From a virus: a DNA stretch of 23,852 nt. Under the pieces are notes generated by a model. The model saw only the letters and a program-made list of their open reading frames with translations, did not search any database and was not told the origin of the DNA. The stretch's first letter is position 1, and every line of letters starts with the position of its first letter. The DNA lies in IMG/VR virus record IMGVR_UViG_3300007512_000200, positions 1 through 23,852 of that record; one strand, given 5' to 3'. Of the stretch, positions 5,008 through 23,852 are shown one piece after another. A program made the position numbers and the translations under genes.

Positions 5008-8000
5008 TTATAGACATACTATACCATTTCTTGTTTTTAAACAGTTACATTCACATCCTGCATCAGTGCATTCTTGTGGGCAAGTTTGCTGTGGTGTTCC
5101 TCCATCGGGTGTTCCTCCGAACATATTCGGGTCGGGCTGACCCGAAGGTGTATCACCGCAGTCGGCCGAGTTACAAGATGTATTGGGGGAGTGCTGGTAC
5201 CAACCAAAGTCGTTGTAGGATTCGCACGCGTCACTATGTACGGCCGAACATTCATTAGGAGTTAGTCCTTCCCAACAACCCATGAAAGTCCAGCAATCCG
5301 GCGGACCCCAATCACCACAATCATCACACCATACACAACAAGCGCCCGGCGGGTCTTTTAAACACCCACAATCGTCTTCCCACGCATCATTCCCACACCC
5401 ACATTGCTCTCCCTCATATATACACCATGTCGCATCACTCCAAGCAAAACACCCTCCACATTCCTGAATGCACGACCCAACCCATGACCATCCACTACTT
5501 GGACCAGAACAATCCCCACACAACGGTCCACAACAATCGATACCGCACCCAACCTCCGCATCCGAACATCGTGTGCAACCTCCAAACCAAGCATAACATC
5601 CATCGCCATATCCGCACCAATCATTAGCATCTTTACATTCTTGAAATGTAACACCATCTGAACAATCCAAATTTTGGTTGCAACATGCACCTATGTGTGG
5701 ACAAGCATCTGCACAGTATTCATTCGCAGTGAACTCACCGCCTTCATAACTACAAGAAGTACTATTAGAGTTCTCTATACAATCTCCGCACAATCTACCA
5801 TCTGTATAGAGGCAACATGCTCCCAATGTTGTGTCATAGATATCACTACACAGACAACAACAAGAATCGAAATCACCAAATGTGTCTTCCCATGTGTAGG
5901 GGTGAAATTGTCCATCTTCATCATCGCACCAGGCCTGAACACACCACCAATCTGTTGAACCATCACAACCACAACCGTAATCGTTGCAACCTATATCCGT
6001 GAAGCAGTCACCATCGTTTGTATCGAATGTACAACATGTTCCCTTTGGAAATTGACATTGGTAGATGTGGTCTTCGTTAGAAGATGGTATACAAGCATCA
6101 CCGTCAAGCCAAACATTATCCTCGTCCTTTTCGCAGACAGACTGAATATATCCATCAAAGCACACCCCATTAATACAACAACCACCTTCTGCGTCTGGGT
6201 CGCATAAAATATCATCGTTATAACAAGTAGGGTCTGGGGGTTCTCCTCCAGAACAATCATACTCATTCCACGCACCATTAAACTCTACTGTACATTGATT
6301 GTCAAATATACAATCTTCGCAACTGTTTTTACCGTGACAACAATATCCAGGTCTACACATTTGACTTTCTATATCTTCATTATCACACTGTTGTCCTGGA
6401 TTGTAATATACTGTGTTTGTTCCGTTTTGTAATTGGTCACATTCATCTTCATCTGCAACATTTACACAATGTCCTATACAACTATTAGGAATCTCATCAT
6501 CAAAACATTCAGAAACACAACAAGCACCAAATTCTTCACAATTTATTTCGTCTTTAGTACCACAATCATCTCCGCAAGCACAATCTTCACAATCGTGCCA
6601 TAATAGAGTTCCGTCTGGACATGCTTCGTTCGCAGGGTCGCTTACCAAACACCACCATTCACTCCCCATACCACAACCACTTAAACAACGAGTATCTTCT
6701 TCTTCTATACAGCAACATGCACCGCAACAATTAATATCTTCACAATGAGTATCGGCACGAAAGTCATTTGTTCCTGGAACACCAATAGAATAACACTCAT
6801 CCCCGCTGTTCACCATAACACAACAACAATAATCATCATCGCATTCGTTTGCCGCCCACGGATTTCCAATACAACATGCACCACCTGGACATCCACTTGT
6901 GTCGCAAGGGTAATCATCACAAGAAGTTTCCCACCAATGCACTCCGCCAGCCTTTTCACATTCGATATCCGTTAGGTTCTGACATTCTTCACAATTTACA
7001 TCTGGTCCAGGAATACAACATGCCCACGCATCAGATGGTTGGGTGCAGTCAACATCATTATCATCACAACTAGTACCCACACCATTAAAATCTCCATCAT
7101 TTGCGACACAAACTTTATCCGTAAATTCTTGACAAGTTCCATCTGGTAAACAACACGCACCAGTATCTGGGAAGTCACAAGGGTCATCATCACAAGAAGT
7201 TCCAGCACCTTTCCAATCACAATCATCGCAATCACAATCATCTTCTGAAAAGTCATCAAAGCATTGCCAAAATCCACTAAAACAACACGCACCAGTACAG
7301 GGGTTGGGTTCACATGTAGTATCTGGTCCTTGAAAAACTCCACCATTTTTAGTACATACGAAATCTTTTACTTGTTCTGAACATCCAGTAGGATAACAAC
7401 ACGCACCAATAATATAACAAGTATCACAGTTACGGTCATCACCATACTCAGGATTTGGGTCTGTCCACATATCGTTAACATCCGATGGTTCATATCCATT
7501 GTCTTGTGCAATTTTGCAACATTCATATTTGTATACTAAATTACCACCATCTAATCCTTTCCCTTCACTCAAACAACAATCTGGTCCTGTAAGACTGTTC
7601 TGAGAACATCCTGCTTCTAAAGAACAACATAATTTTTTTTCTTGTTCCTCACATTCAATATCTGCACATGTTAAATCACAAGAATCAATACCACTTGGAT
7701 GAACTGCTACTGAACCATGCCAAATTCCAGGCAATCTATTTTCGTTGTCATCTTTATACCCAAAACATTCCCAGACAGTAACATCGTCTAGACACTCACG
7801 GTTTGGTAAACAACACGGCGCAGTTGGAAGGCATGGATTTTCAGAAGTATAATTATCTGGGTCTTTGTTATCCCAATAACTATCACTTTCTGTGCATGAA
7901 TAATTTGGCATCTCACCACCAAGAAAATCGTCACACATAAATCTCCAGAAATCACTATTGCAGGCTCTTAGTTTTAATGTTTCTGCATCGAGTTGAATTT

Positions 8001-9270: not shown

Positions 9271-9286
9271 AATATAAGTATATTAA

Positions 9287-11458
9287 TTAAGAAAGACACC
9301 CACACAGTCCATCGTGTGCATTTGGAACATCGAAGAAATATATGTCTTTTGGAATGGTTGGGTCTGGTTCATCTAATGGTTCTTCTTTTGGAGCAATTGT
9401 TCCTTTTACAATTTCTCCGTCTTCATTTAATTCTCCTAGCATGTAATTAGGAATTCTATACATCTGTACGATGTGACGCTTCATGTTCCAAGGTCCATCC
9501 ATTATATCGTTCTCATTACTTTCTAATGCACATGGGTCGTCCAACATATCAGCACCTTCTGCAACATTAACTTCAAAATATCCACCGACTGGCATCATTT
9601 GATATGATTCTGGATAATCATTATATTCTAAATCAGCAACATTAATACCAGGACCAACATTAACATTAGTACCGTCTGTTGTGTTCATTAATTCGTTTAA
9701 GTTATAAGCAGGGTTTGTCCATTCCACATCCTCGTCTGGGTTTGCTCCTCTAAATGTTCCTGCTAGACCTTGACCTTCAGGCGGTATAACAATTTTTACT
9801 GGTGAACCTTCTGGACTAATGTCTGTACCCAAATTGTCTTCCACATGGTCACTAGGCCATATCTCAACTTCTCTCCAAGAATATTCGTAGATTCCGCCCC
9901 TGTCATCTGGTGTAACTTTTTTTGCATCTTCAATAACTGCAAGAAACACAAAAGGTTTAATAGATTGTTTATCACAACAAATAGAATGTCTGTATACATT
10001 AAACTTTTCTTTAAGATTAACTACTTGAAGGTGTGCTTTAATACTATCAGATGTTGGTTTTTTAATATCTTTTTGAATAGTTTTTATTATTTCCCCTTCA
10101 AGAGTTGTTTGGTCAAACATTGTTTGCCAAAGTTTATCATTTCTTTTTCCTTGCTTTCCTTCTAGTGCCGCAGAACCAAGAAAATCATAAGACTTTTCTC
10201 CATGATAATTATATGGAGAATCAAAATATCCATACAGTCCAGTGTTGTCATGTTTTCTTACAGACTTTCTTTCTATGTTTACTGGATTATCAATGTTTAT
10301 AGAAGTGTCTATACTTTCTGGAAGAAGTTTAAATTTTTCTACCCTTCCACCGTCCGACTCAGTACCCCATTTTCCTTCTTCCCCATCTCCACCTTCATTA
10401 ACTTCATGATAACCATATGTAATAATTTCTCTACCTCCCCAATCCGTTGATAGCGGATGAGTGTGTGCGGTGGTAAAATCTACATAATCAAAATACGGGT
10501 CTTCATATGATGGTTTTATTCTTTCATAATATGATGTATATGCGCCAGACTTGAACGCATTTAAATGGTCATACTCACTAAAGTTTATCATCGATTCAAT
10601 TTTTCTATTACCTTTTCCTTCTTCTTCATCATCTATCATTCCAACTCTATATTCGTTTGCTCCACCACGCTCACCACCGTAAAGAACACCTTTCTCATTC
10701 GCATCTTTAATCATCTGTCTAATAGATTTAAAATGCCATCCATCTAGGTCTGCATAAAATAAATAATTTACACCACTCAAGTCTGTTGTAACGGCATTTT
10801 CAGAAAGATTATTCATGAGTTGCATAAGATTTGGTGGATGAACATCCTTACCCCAAGGATACATACTTTGATTTTTTTTCAACCATATCCAGTTATGTGT
10901 ATCTTCAATTTCCATTTCCTTTTGTGCGTTAGAAAATCCTTCCACAGCATCGGGATTTAAATATTTACCTGCTAACTCATTTACTAAACCATCACTACCC
11001 GCAATTGGTCCAATAAAATCTTCATCCATATAATCTAAATTATCCCAATCTAATATGTAACTTTCACAAGACACAAATTCAAGTTCCCACCCCGCTCCAG
11101 GTCTAGCACTTGGTCCAGAAGTTGCTTCTACTGATTCGTTACCTGTTGCTCTTACATCATTCACACAGAAGGTTAATGTGTGTTTAGAATTTTCAATCTC
11201 TGGAGATTCCATTTCTATGTCTACAAATTCATTACCTGTCATATTAAAATAATCACCGACAGTATTCGGTTCTTTGAATTTTAAAGAACCAACTATACCA
11301 TTACGCATTATGTTTTCATTAATTTGCATACCTGCAAACAATTCTTGCATTACACCATCTTCTTCTGGTGCAGGTATAATTTGAAGTTCATCCCCACTTC
11401 GTTGATTTCGTATAACTATTTTTGTAATATTAATGTCTGATGGTGTTTGCTTTGCCAT
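9287..11458 (-). CDS. 27: Baseplate hub protein, gp27-like
   Basis: This 723-aa protein has the N-terminal pattern of marine myovirus hub proteins: INENIMRNGIVGSLKFKEPN, GNEFVDIEMES and a run ending LTFCVNDVRA, equivalent to the first beta-barrel of T4 gp27/Mu gp44. Around residues 490-515 is a NVYRHSICCDKQSIKPFVFL block also typical of these proteins. It is much longer than T4 gp27 (391 aa), with long acidic inserts. It ends in a Cys-bearing tail, LCGCLS. The hub links the tail tube to the central spike and the wedges. Start at 11458 has AAGGGTGA upstream. The family assignment is from recalled motifs and from its place between gp53 and the other baseplate genes. Confidence 0.65.
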   Translation of the reverse strand: MAKQTPSDINITKIVIRNQRSGDELQIIPAPEEDGVMQELFAGMQINENIMRNGIVGSLKFKEPNTVGDYFNMTGNEFVDIEMESPEIENSKHTLTFCVNDVRATGNESVEATSGPSARPGAGWELEFVSCESYILDWDNLDYMDEDFIGPIAGSDGLVNELAGKYLNPDAVEGFSNAQKEMEIEDTHNWIWLKKNQSMYPWGKDVHPPNLMQLMNNLSENAVTTDLSGVNYLFYADLDGWHFKSIRQMIKDANEKGVLYGGERGGANEYRVGMIDDEEEGKGNRKIESMINFSEYDHLNAFKSGAYTSYYERIKPSYEDPYFDYVDFTTAHTHPLSTDWGGREIITYGYHEVNEGGDGEEGKWGTESDGGRVEKFKLLPESIDTSINIDNPVNIERKSVRKHDNTGLYGYFDSPYNYHGEKSYDFLGSAALEGKQGKRNDKLWQTMFDQTTLEGEIIKTIQKDIKKPTSDSIKAHLQVVNLKEKFNVYRHSICCDKQSIKPFVFLAVIEDAKKVTPDDRGGIYEYSWREVEIWPSDHVEDNLGTDISPEGSPVKIVIPPEGQGLAGTFRGANPDEDVEWTNPAYNLNELMNTTDGTNVNVGPGINVADLEYNDYPESYQMMPVGGYFEVNVAEGADMLDDPCALESNENDIMDGPWNMKRHIVQMYRIPNYMLGELNEDGEIVKGTIAPKEEPLDEPDPTIPKDIYFFDVPNAHDGLCGCLS

Positions 11459-16861: not shown

Positions 16862-17752
16862 TTATTCGTTTGCTAACTTTTCAAAGTAAGAAAGAGCATC
16901 CGTTTCTTCAGTTCCTTCTCCATCTCCAAATGCTTTTTCTGCTTTGGCAGCACCATCATTCTCAGATTCACTAATGGTTTCAGCAGTAGTAGATGTATCT
17001 TGAGTTGTCTGGCGAATGTCAGCACCAAGAACAGCATCTCGTTTTGTTTTCAATTCATCATATGATTTGAAATTCTTGGGGTCAATAAATTCTGCAAGTG
17101 CATATTGAGTCTTCCAAAGTTCTTCCAATTTGGCATCATCACCATCAAGTAATGCAGAGGTAGATTCAAATTCACTCTTATCATAGTTGATAAAGCCTGC
17201 AACCTTACGAACCTTCAACTTGAAGTTAGCACCACTCCAGAAATCGAATGGATTGATTGCATCTTCGTCTGCAAATTCTGGGTTCATTGATTCGTTGATT
17301 TTATCAAAAATCTTCTTTCCAAATTTGTAAAGAAATACCTTACCTTCGTTTTGTGGATTGGCAGGGTCACTTACAATCATAATGTTGGACACATAGTGCA
17401 ATCGCCTCTTACGATTTCGTGCAATATCTTTATCCTTTTCGATTCCACTATTCCAAAGTTCACTGTTTGCTTCACATACAGGACACTTTTGACCAAGTGT
17501 AGTAGGACAATTCTCAATAAACCATCCACCCTTACCTTGAAAACCATGTGAATAATACTTTGCCCATGGCAAATCTTCACCCTCTGATGCAGGGAGGAAT
17601 CTAATTACAGCAAAACCGTTACTGGATTTGTCCAACTCTGGACGCCAGAAACGGTCATCGGTGTATGATTCTTTCTTGTTTGTTTCTTCAATCTTCTTAG
17701 TCAATTCTGTAATACTTGACTGAGAACGCTTCTTAAAATCTGCAAATGACAT
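16862..17752 (-). CDS. 32: Single-stranded DNA-binding protein gp32
   Basis: The start at 17752 (296 aa) has AAGGAGC 6 nt upstream; a longer in-frame ORF would cover the leader hairpins and is rejected. T4 gp32 is 301 aa. The basic N-terminus (FKKRSQSSITELTKKI) is the cooperative-binding region. The core carries RFWRPELDKSSNGFAVIRFL and the zinc ligands H69, C82, C90 and C93 (SHG ... NCP ... KCPVCE), like T4 H64/C77/C87/C90 with slightly shorter spacing. The C-terminus (SESENDGAAKAEK and after) is acidic, ending SYFEKLANE, the usual partner-recruitment tail. It coats replicating and recombining DNA. It lies after gp33 with its own promoter and a structured leader, consistent with translational control as in T4. 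Confidence 0.96.
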   Translation of the reverse strand: MSFADFKKRSQSSITELTKKIEETNKKESYTDDRFWRPELDKSSNGFAVIRFLPASEGEDLPWAKYYSHGFQGKGGWFIENCPTTLGQKCPVCEANSELWNSGIEKDKDIARNRKRRLHYVSNIMIVSDPANPQNEGKVFLYKFGKKIFDKINESMNPEFADEDAINPFDFWSGANFKLKVRKVAGFINYDKSEFESTSALLDGDDAKLEELWKTQYALAEFIDPKNFKSYDELKTKRDAVLGADIRQTTQDTSTTAETISESENDGAAKAEKAFGDGEGTEETDALSYFEKLANE

Positions 17753-17776
17753 ATAAATGCTCCTTATTTTGCTATT

Positions 17777-17820
17777 CACGGAACTACCGTGTTCTAAACT
17801 CGGTCGGGAACTACCCAACC
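17777..17820 (-). promoter_or_regulatory. Tandem leader hairpins with identical UAGUU loops ahead of gp32
   Basis: On the minus strand two hairpins share the 9-mer GGUAGUUCC. The outer (17802-17820) has a 7-bp stem GGUUGGG / CCCGACC, which needs one G-U pair that exists only in the minus-strand RNA. The inner (17777-17791) has a 5-bp stem CACGG / CCGUG. Both present the 5-nt loop UAGUU. The inner hairpin ends 11 nt before the SD. Two identical protein-display elements in the leader of an autoregulated gene suggest an operator, perhaps for gp32 itself. The structures are seen; the role is inferred. Confidence 0.65.
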
Positions 17821-17837
17821 ACAACTGATATATGTAT

Positions 17838-17868: not shown

Positions 17869-18096
17869 TTAAATTGGAAGTTTTGCAGTATTTTTAGAGA
17901 ACATATTATATTCTCTACCTTCTTCTTCTATTTTTTCTATAATTGGCTGTGAAAGTATCTTTGATGCCACATTAGGTTCTATCTCATATTCGTCACAAGC
18001 AATTATAACTGCCTCAATATAACCGGCACCATCGTCTAAAACAATAGTTTCTATTCTTTTTAAAAATTCTGCTTGATTTTCTTCGCTAAATAACAT
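17869..18096 (-). CDS. 33: Late transcription co-activator gp33
   Basis: This 75-aa protein resembles the short gp33 of marine T4-like phages: a helix with a GYIEAVIIACDEYEIEP block and ASKILSQPIIEKIEEEG, then a basic Lys/Leu tail. T4 gp33 (112 aa) links RNA polymerase to the sliding clamp at late promoters. The neighbourhood gp33-gp32 repeats the T4 32-59-33 cluster. Start has AAAAGGAA upstream. The late promoters TATAAATA elsewhere in the window are its expected targets. The assignment is by motif and synteny. Confidence 0.75.
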   Translation of the reverse strand: MLFSEENQAEFLKRIETIVLDDGAGYIEAVIIACDEYEIEPNVASKILSQPIIEKIEEEGREYNMFSKNTAKLPI

Positions 18097-22807: not shown

Positions 22808-23260
22808 CTATTTATGCTCACTTTTAAACCTATCTTCTAAAAGTGATGTTAATTTAGTTTCAAAATCAGAATTATCATATGCTCCCCTACCTTTATTAAC
22901 AAGTCTGGTAGTTAATGCAATGTTTTCTAGATGATACCCTTTGCTACTATCCAACCTATCTACAGAAGGTGCAAATGGAGAATGTGCTACGAACAAGTCT
23001 TCTACAGACATATCAACACCCAACCAATAACATTTTCCTTCTTGTTTTAACCATAGTTTTTTTAAATCATCTTTTTCTATTGTAATATCATGTCTTCTAG
23101 TACTTTGATTTCCTTTACGAAGTCTACCAGAGAGTTTTGGATTATTTTCAATTCTTGGTCCTGCCGCGCCGTGTTTAGAAGACATATTAGTATTGGTCCA
23201 AAGTCTTGTCCAATACTTTTTATATTTTTTATCTGTCACATATTTTGTATAATCATCCAT
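22808..23260 (-). CDS. HNH-type endonuclease, free-standing
   Basis: This 150-aa protein has a short basic N-terminal half (KKYKKYWTRLWTNT; RLRKGNQSTRRHD) and an HNH-like core in residues 64-125: LKKLWLKQEGKCYWLGVDM, then SVDRLDSSKGYHLENIALT and RLVNKGRG. The D101-R102-x-D104 and Y109-H110-x-x-N113 spacing matches small phage HNH proteins with the S-V-D-R-x-D-x-x-x-G-Y block, in which N122 is the usual later catalytic-core Asn. Only one Cys is present, so no zinc ribbon is seen. It heads the small-gene operon. AAAAGGAAATACAAC precedes the start. It may be a homing endonuclease. Confidence 0.75.
   Translation of the reverse strand: MDDYTKYVTDKKYKKYWTRLWTNTNMSSKHGAAGPRIENNPKLSGRLRKGNQSTRRHDITIEKDDLKKLWLKQEGKCYWLGVDMSVEDLFVAHSPFAPSVDRLDSSKGYHLENIALTTRLVNKGRGAYDNSDFETKLTSLLEDRFKSEHK
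22809..22816 (-). promoter_or_regulatory. Late-promoter-like CATAAATA inside the 3' end of the HNH gene
   Basis: Minus-strand CATAAATA lies 32 bases before the ATG at 22776 and at the last codons of the HNH gene. It matches NATAAATA and may give late expression of the small genes apart from the endonuclease. Confidence 0.4.
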
Positions 23261-23281
23261 GTTGTATTTCCTTTTCTATTA

Positions 23282-23309
23282 ATTATACCACAACATAAAA
23301 AGAAGTCAA
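23282..23309 (-). promoter_or_regulatory. Sigma70-type promoter for the HNH/small-gene operon
   Basis: Minus-strand TTGACT (23304-23309), 16-base spacer, TATAAT (23282-23287), giving a start near 23275 and a leader of about 15 nt. It has the same -35 and spacer length as the gp32 promoter and suggests early or middle expression by host polymerase. Confidence 0.7.
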
Positions 23310-23310
23310 A

Positions 23311-23346
23311 TAAAAAAGTCGGCTTTCCTTAAAGGAATAACCGACT
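23311..23346 (-). terminator. Intrinsic terminator on the minus strand ending an upstream transcript
   Basis: agtcgg (23317-23322) pairs with ccgact (23341-23346) and encloses a smaller ttcct / aggaa stem. On the minus strand the helix is followed by a run of six T (23312-23317). It stands immediately upstream of the HNH promoter and insulates it from transcription arriving from the right. Confidence 0.85.
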
Positions 23347-23852
23347 AGTTTATCGTTCCTAGTGGCGGCCGACCACTCAAGTCCTAATGAATCTTACATC
23401 ATCTTCACATCTTGGGATACCCAACCGATTTCGATGTCAATAAATGCCTTGTACTGGAAGGAACGGATGTTTACTTGGTGGTTCGGATACGGTTTGCTTT
23501 TTATCACCATCGTCCGATTAATCCCTCAGGCGCGCACTTGGGAAACTGTTCGTGCTTCTGCACCACCAAATTGTTTAAGAATCGGGGAAGGAGGTTTCCT
23601 TCATCCACTGTGGTGGCAATGGAAGTGTCTTCCGTCCACTTCCCCAATTCAATTTATCACACTCCGACAGGATTCTATTATACCTGCAACTTTCGAGGTC
23701 AACTAATATTGTTATTACTCTACTCGCACTGCTACTGTTAGAGTTACCCAACTAGAATCTATACCTCTCGGCCGTCTTCCACCCCACCACAGGGAGTCGC
23801 ATACTTTAATCCGCATAACGAAAATTTGTTCAGTCACGGAGTTAGTGCAGGC
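23347..23852 (-). ncRNA. Candidate large structured non-coding RNA (5' part beyond the window)
   Basis: About 500 bases before the minus-strand terminator hold no convincing gene but are visibly richer in G+C than the rest and full of helices. Supported pairings are 23475-23482 with 23562-23569 (8 bp, ttggtggt / accaccaa), coaxial with 23483-23487 / 23513-23517; 23584-23590 with 23639-23645 (7 bp, ggggaag / cttcccc) enclosing hairpins at 23605-23616 and 23621-23633 as a junction; and hairpins 23361-23377, 23412-23424 and 23718-23743. One helix (23667-23671 with 23683-23687) closes with a G-U that exists only in the minus-strand RNA. A class cannot be named; GOLLD or ROOL type phage RNAs, a group I intron or a new class are open. 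The right edge truncates it. Confidence 0.5.

Follow-up and report, generated by a model that had tools for sequence, protein, structure and literature searches.

manA heads a shuffled array of structured RNA modules on the minus strand of a T4-like phage contig

The window analysed here, the whole 23,852-nucleotide stretch of IMG/VR virus record IMGVR_UViG_3300007512_000200, ends in just over 500 bases (23347 to 23852) without a convincing gene, and the question raised by this locus is what a T4-like phage encodes there. The initial annotation described the region as GC-rich, gene-free, heavily folded and closed by an intrinsic terminator on the minus strand, and this description agrees with the present analysis. 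G+C content is 0.42 over 23251 to 23750 compared to about 0.35 nearby, and the minus-strand fold was not equalled by any of 100 shuffles (z -2.86), whereas the plus-strand fold was no better than shuffles (z 0.21). Open reading frames (ORFs) of 114, 109, 58 and 38 amino acids are present, and all four meet stops, frameshifts or a loss of alignment in relatives that retain the RNA, so that no conserved reading frame was found. Relatives here are 40-odd IMG/VR loci, all on metagenomic contigs and some of them near-duplicates. Together, these observations support a non-coding structured RNA on the minus strand, composed from 5' to 3' of manA RNA, three further modules termed U2, U3 and U4, and the terminator:

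23657 to 23852, minus strand: manA RNA (RF01745) with its 5' end missing; cmscan 52.6 bits, E 1.3e-12, model positions 7-192 of 192
23579 to 23650, minus strand: U2, with an 11-bp closing stem, present in five loci; fold z -3.57
23475 to 23569, minus strand: U3, four helices including a closing stem of 6-8 bp; 109.4 bits with model R2
23354 to 23465, minus strand: U4, with a 7-bp P1, a short P2, a P3 hairpin, a P4 with GUAAGA loop, a P5 abutting P1 and a loop pseudoknot; 99.5 bits with model R1
23311 to 23346, minus strand: intrinsic terminator of the array, predicted from the fold, with the stem AGUCGGUU-A-UUCCU/AGGAA-AGCCGACU followed by UUUUUUA

The first module is, judged by its covariance-model alignment, a member of a divergent subgroup of manA. 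No Rfam family matched the window region at gathering thresholds, and manA surfaced in a permissive search, its score lying below the family cut-off of 55.2 bits because the contig ends inside the module. The true 5' end of the array is therefore outside the window: the contig stops within the first hairpin, of which only the 3' half is retained, while the nearest relative (L124) has the hairpin in full (GTGCAG...CTGCAC). The assignment to manA follows from the Rfam match together with full-length relatives above the cut-off. Such relatives with the same layout score 55.3-73.4 bits, some others 50-54, and in covariance-model searches 19 of 26 positive records reached at least 55.2 bits. The conserved manA core (GUGACUGAAYAA ... 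GUGGUG ... GGUAUA ... AAUCC) and its helices are present in the model alignment of the window. The divergence of the group is seen in its scores of 50-73 bits, whereas two canonical copies score 142 and 172.

Downstream of manA lie three self-closed units, and successive modules and the terminator are set apart by A-rich gaps of 6, 9, 9 and 7 nt (the last between U4 and the terminator); the joints in relatives are likewise A-rich linkers of 5-10 nt. The long-range helices seen in the initial annotation correspond to stems that each close one module (11 bp in U2, 6-8 bp in U3 and 7 bp in U4). Covariation among relatives is clear for two of these. In U4, 96.9% of alignment cells are paired with the pseudoknot included, 12 pairs have changed on both sides and none of 500 shuffles did as well; sliding the pairing partners reduced pairing to 31-47%. 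This count is based on 12 aligned sequences of one subtype, the window included, as MAFFT misaligned P5 between subtypes. In U3, 99.2% of cells are paired and five pairs have changed on both sides, again with 0 of 500 shuffles as good. In the five sequences of U2, 95% of cells are paired but covariation is weak, and since 30-54 of 500 shuffles equalled the observed score this module is treated as tentative. The evidence that manA, U3 and U4 are real structured RNAs is thus strong, and that for U2 as a structured module weak. None of U2, U3 and U4 matched an Rfam family at gathering thresholds in 25 related loci.

Beyond the aligned subtype, the 7-base closing stem of U4 was found in all 30 distinct sequences (36 loci), with 7 of 7 pairs formed in 29 of them, and a conserved 21-mer of this module recurred in 29 loci in a scan of viral contigs. 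Two loci (L019 and L129) carry the P4 stem AGUG/CACU instead of AUGA/UCAU with an unchanged GUAAGA loop. The pseudoknot joins the P5 loop to a 5' segment; its Watson-Crick length is 4.7 for true partners compared to 3.5 for swapped ones. In the window the pseudoknot has just 3 bp (GGC/GCC) and is weaker than in nearly all relatives, where it has 4-6 bp. P5 itself, a 5-bp stem with a loop of 7-8 nt, directly abuts the 7-nt 3' strand of P1 without a spacer in 30 of 30 distinct sequences. The modelled geometry is reminiscent of the acceptor and T arm in the top half of a tRNA, a resemblance in shape only, as the loop sequence is not that of a T-loop and neither ARAGORN nor Rfam called U4 a tRNA or tmRNA in the window or in relatives.

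The arrangement of these modules differs from phage to phage. Layouts were assigned with models R1 (U4) and R2 (U3), the Rfam model of manA and reading of the sequences:

manA-U2-U3-U4: the window, L131 and L142
manA-U3-U4: L124
manA-U2-U4: L136
manA-X-U2-U4: L138
manA-U4: L130, L132, L134, L135, L146, L153, L155 and others
manA-U4-U3: L148
U4-U3 without manA: L149
U4 alone: L137/L145
U3-U4 behind a manA stump: L276/L277

Where manA is present it takes the first place. The order U3-U4 in the window, L124, L131, L142 and L276 is reversed to U4-U3 in L148 and L149, and in L276/L277 the body of manA has been lost except for its first hairpin and GTGACTGAACAA, with U3, U4 and the terminator kept. 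A search of 20 whole records, among them contigs of 123-135 kb, found U4 exactly once in every record, which argues against a spreading repeat; manA accompanied it in 13 of these records and was lacking in the other 7, and U3 was found in 6. In other phages, U4 sits between genes for tRNA-Arg and tRNA-Leu (L133 and L140) or is found among other stem-closed units joined by ACAATCTAA linkers (L139, L141 and L144). That the modules form a shuffled non-coding array, in which they are gained, lost and reordered among related phages, is well supported. As neither R1 nor R2 found a match in the canonical manA loci searched, U4 and U3 do not belong to manA in general. U4 was also not found in 289 alphaproteobacterial genomes, where stricter filters may miss weak matches. 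A pattern scan of genome contigs returned mostly chance matches, and manA exceeded its cut-off in 2 of 16 loci checked (L237 and L230). The ORFs neighbouring the first look phage-structural and the second also contains PhotoRC-II; these two contigs may therefore come from phages and have been binned with bacteria.

Some of the other arrays have features of their own. The further stem-closed units of L139, L141 and L144, of the form GGGGnGTAGTA...TACTACTnCCCC, are apparently related between phages and occur in more than one copy in L139. At least two of these other phages (L141 and L144) have, downstream, a gene whose sequence reads as a T7-type RNA polymerase. On the reverse complement of L144, a few hundred nt 3' of U4, an element of about 78 nt (GGGGCCGAGACAGGTATCGAGCC ... 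GGTTCGAATCCGAGCGGCTCCA) resembles a tmRNA whose two ends are joined, 5' to 3', without the mRNA part, although ARAGORN made no call.

Based on these layouts, the best reading, and one that we consider moderately probable, is a single minus-strand precursor of several trans-acting RNAs that is cut at its linkers. From sequence we infer how such an array would be transcribed, processed and put to use. It would be transcribed as its own unit, from manA through U2, U3 and U4 to the terminator, and host RNA-processing enzymes would cut the transcript at the A-rich linkers. The pieces could then act separately in trans as small RNAs, comparable to the tRNAs of a phage tRNA cluster. U4 might additionally be trimmed by RNase P or RNase Z, as its tRNA-like top half makes such processing plausible. 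The most likely role of the released RNAs would be to service translation or RNA metabolism in the infected cell, or to protect them, perhaps as decoys of, or antidotes to, host RNA-targeting defences. This role is a guess of fairly low probability, prompted by modules that accompany tRNAs, are present in one copy and come and go in the manner of accessory genes. On a wider scale, it is possible, and proposed here tentatively, that cassettes of RNA modules (manA, U3, U4 and others) that are interchangeable and processed separately are found in at least two different types of marine phage. These would serve as a combinatorial trans-acting toolkit that is swapped module by module, for example against host defences, with manA a module and not a riboswitch. 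Several points weigh against a cut precursor: the modules could belong to one RNA in which the gaps act as flexible joints, the alignments of U3 (7 distinct sequences) and U2 (5) are small, every relative is metagenomic with some near-duplicates among them, and neither U4 nor the array region had a match in a cultured phage among 50,697 phage records.

If the gaps were such joints, the region might be a single large, ornate RNA into which domains are optionally inserted, folded into one particle in the manner of GOLLD or ROOL. In favour of this, the modules presumably share one transcript, in which the gaps are short and manA comes first whenever it is present, and the minus strand folds well as a whole. 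This explanation is nevertheless unlikely: in other phages the modules are separated and reordered, which argues against it, U4 being found alone, between tRNA genes and without manA, and U3 and U4 swapping places. Models of GOLLD, ROOL, HEARO, group I introns and RNase P gave no match over 23250 to 23852, at gathering thresholds or up to an E of 10, and the likeness to GOLLD and ROOL drawn in the initial annotation therefore does not hold. The large structured minus-strand phage RNA that it predicted is borne out by the manA match, the covariation and the broken ORFs, but not in the form of one ornate RNA. The four frames open in the window would be in line with a small gene, or the remnant of one, that folds by coincidence. 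These are interrupted, shifted or unaligned in relatives keeping the RNA, and base pairs of U4 and U3 covary; a coding region or chance structure is on both grounds rejected as extremely improbable.

The remaining alternative concerns manA itself, which lies in potential 5' untranslated regions (UTRs) of varied genes and has been considered a possible riboswitch (Weinberg et al. 2010, PMC2864571), a role still awaiting verification (PMC9964418). Under this explanation manA would be a metabolite riboswitch, and the later elements with the terminator would be the expression platform of the downstream gene. Both Rfam and Weinberg et al. regard manA as probably cis-regulatory, the first feature 3' of manA is an ORF in 62 of 98 canonical, cyanophage-like loci, and a lone terminator after canonical manA would also fit attenuation. 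The same count, which is simple counting over partly redundant loci, has a terminator first in 27, a tRNA first in 6 and no feature in 3. In the window manA is not in a 5' UTR, since three modules, a terminator and a separate promoter-like site stand between it and the next gene, and that gene varies among relatives. The cis-regulatory label of Rfam does not fit this group, a riboswitch of this kind is improbable here, and the arrays suggest that the earlier view of manA as a gene switch is too simple. In some canonical loci (e.g. L016, L018, L053, L060 and L116), manA is followed by a terminator-like hairpin that recurs among them and has conserved inner segments, GACCTAAGATGCAACTC..GAGTSGGGCAGAKGGTCTTTTT; this hairpin is possibly another RNA module.

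The terminator has a 13-bp stem with one bulge, exceeds the stem and loop limits of a simple scanner and was identified in the predicted fold; in most relatives, too, the array ends 3' in a hairpin and a T run. Immediately downstream, a strong promoter-like site indicates that the next gene is a separate unit:

23282 to 23309, minus strand: promoter-like site of the next gene, TTGACT-16-TATAAT, 11/12 matches, with TG before the -10 element
22808 to 23260, minus strand: endonuclease VII/HNH-like gene (phrog_3322, E 5.8e-20)

In L142, too, this endonuclease gene comes after the array, whereas L124, L131, L138, L122 and L130 have different genes in this position. Overall, the downstream genes among relatives include the endonuclease, a DNA methylase and several unrelated small proteins. 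Upstream, most T4-like loci (e.g. L138, L148, L149 and L276) have a small helix-turn-helix (HTH)-like gene and a hairpin 5' of the array. The match of this gene to PF14090 (E 0.006) is under the Pfam cut-off, and no match to it was found among the 50,697 phage records. The leader after the hairpin, TTTTGANAANTGAATAA, is conserved whichever module leads the array. Four loci (L134, L146, L156 and L157) instead have a promoter-like pair of -35 and -10 elements just 5' of the array. Read from sequence, the flanks have the layout of an independent non-coding gene.

Several known systems can be compared with the array. Some phage tRNA clusters contain additional stable RNAs, such as RNA C and RNA D of phage T4, which are small, structured and of unknown function and are transcribed together with tRNAs or close to them. 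The array resembles such clusters in that U4 has tRNA genes on both sides in L133 and L140; it differs in that U4 and U3 are without an Rfam family and the modules form an array of their own in the T4-like group. With canonical manA RNA (RF01745, PMC2864571) the array shares its first module, identified by the covariance model, although here the sequence is divergent and, rather than lying in a 5' UTR, opens a non-coding array of several modules that ends in a terminator of its own. GOLLD and ROOL (PMC12286853) are likewise large, gene-free structured RNAs of phages or mobile elements, whereas the present region has no Rfam match to them and consists of modules that can be separated, not of a single conserved fold. 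wcaG and PhotoRC-II RNAs, structured RNAs of marine T4-like phages (PMC2864571, PMC9964418), are families different from the array modules, and both remained below the Rfam cut-off in the window and the array loci searched. Since 2010 manA has counted among the orphan riboswitch candidates. Its place at the head of non-coding arrays, followed by other modules and, past a terminator, by variable genes, moves the question from its ligand to a function in trans. In addition, U3 and U4 add two structured RNA classes with covariation support, and the arrays point to an exchange of RNA domains between phages.

The window itself is a fragment of a T4-like phage, as indicated by T4-type baseplate and tail protein genes in its annotation together with two further genes:

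16862 to 17824: gp32
17869 to 18096: late-transcription coactivator

This phage is most likely marine. Its gp6-like protein reaches about 30% identity at best with homologues of cyanophages and Caulobacter phage Cr30, and a similarity search of the 50,697 phage records returned no match to any stretch of the array region. Two arrays of relatives with manA or U4 have a phage tmRNA nearby, at 9285 to 9615 on the minus strand of L128 and likewise at 6560 to 6893 on the plus strand of L154, and the tag peptides of these tmRNAs are very short (GNSYALAA and GNNSYSRAA).
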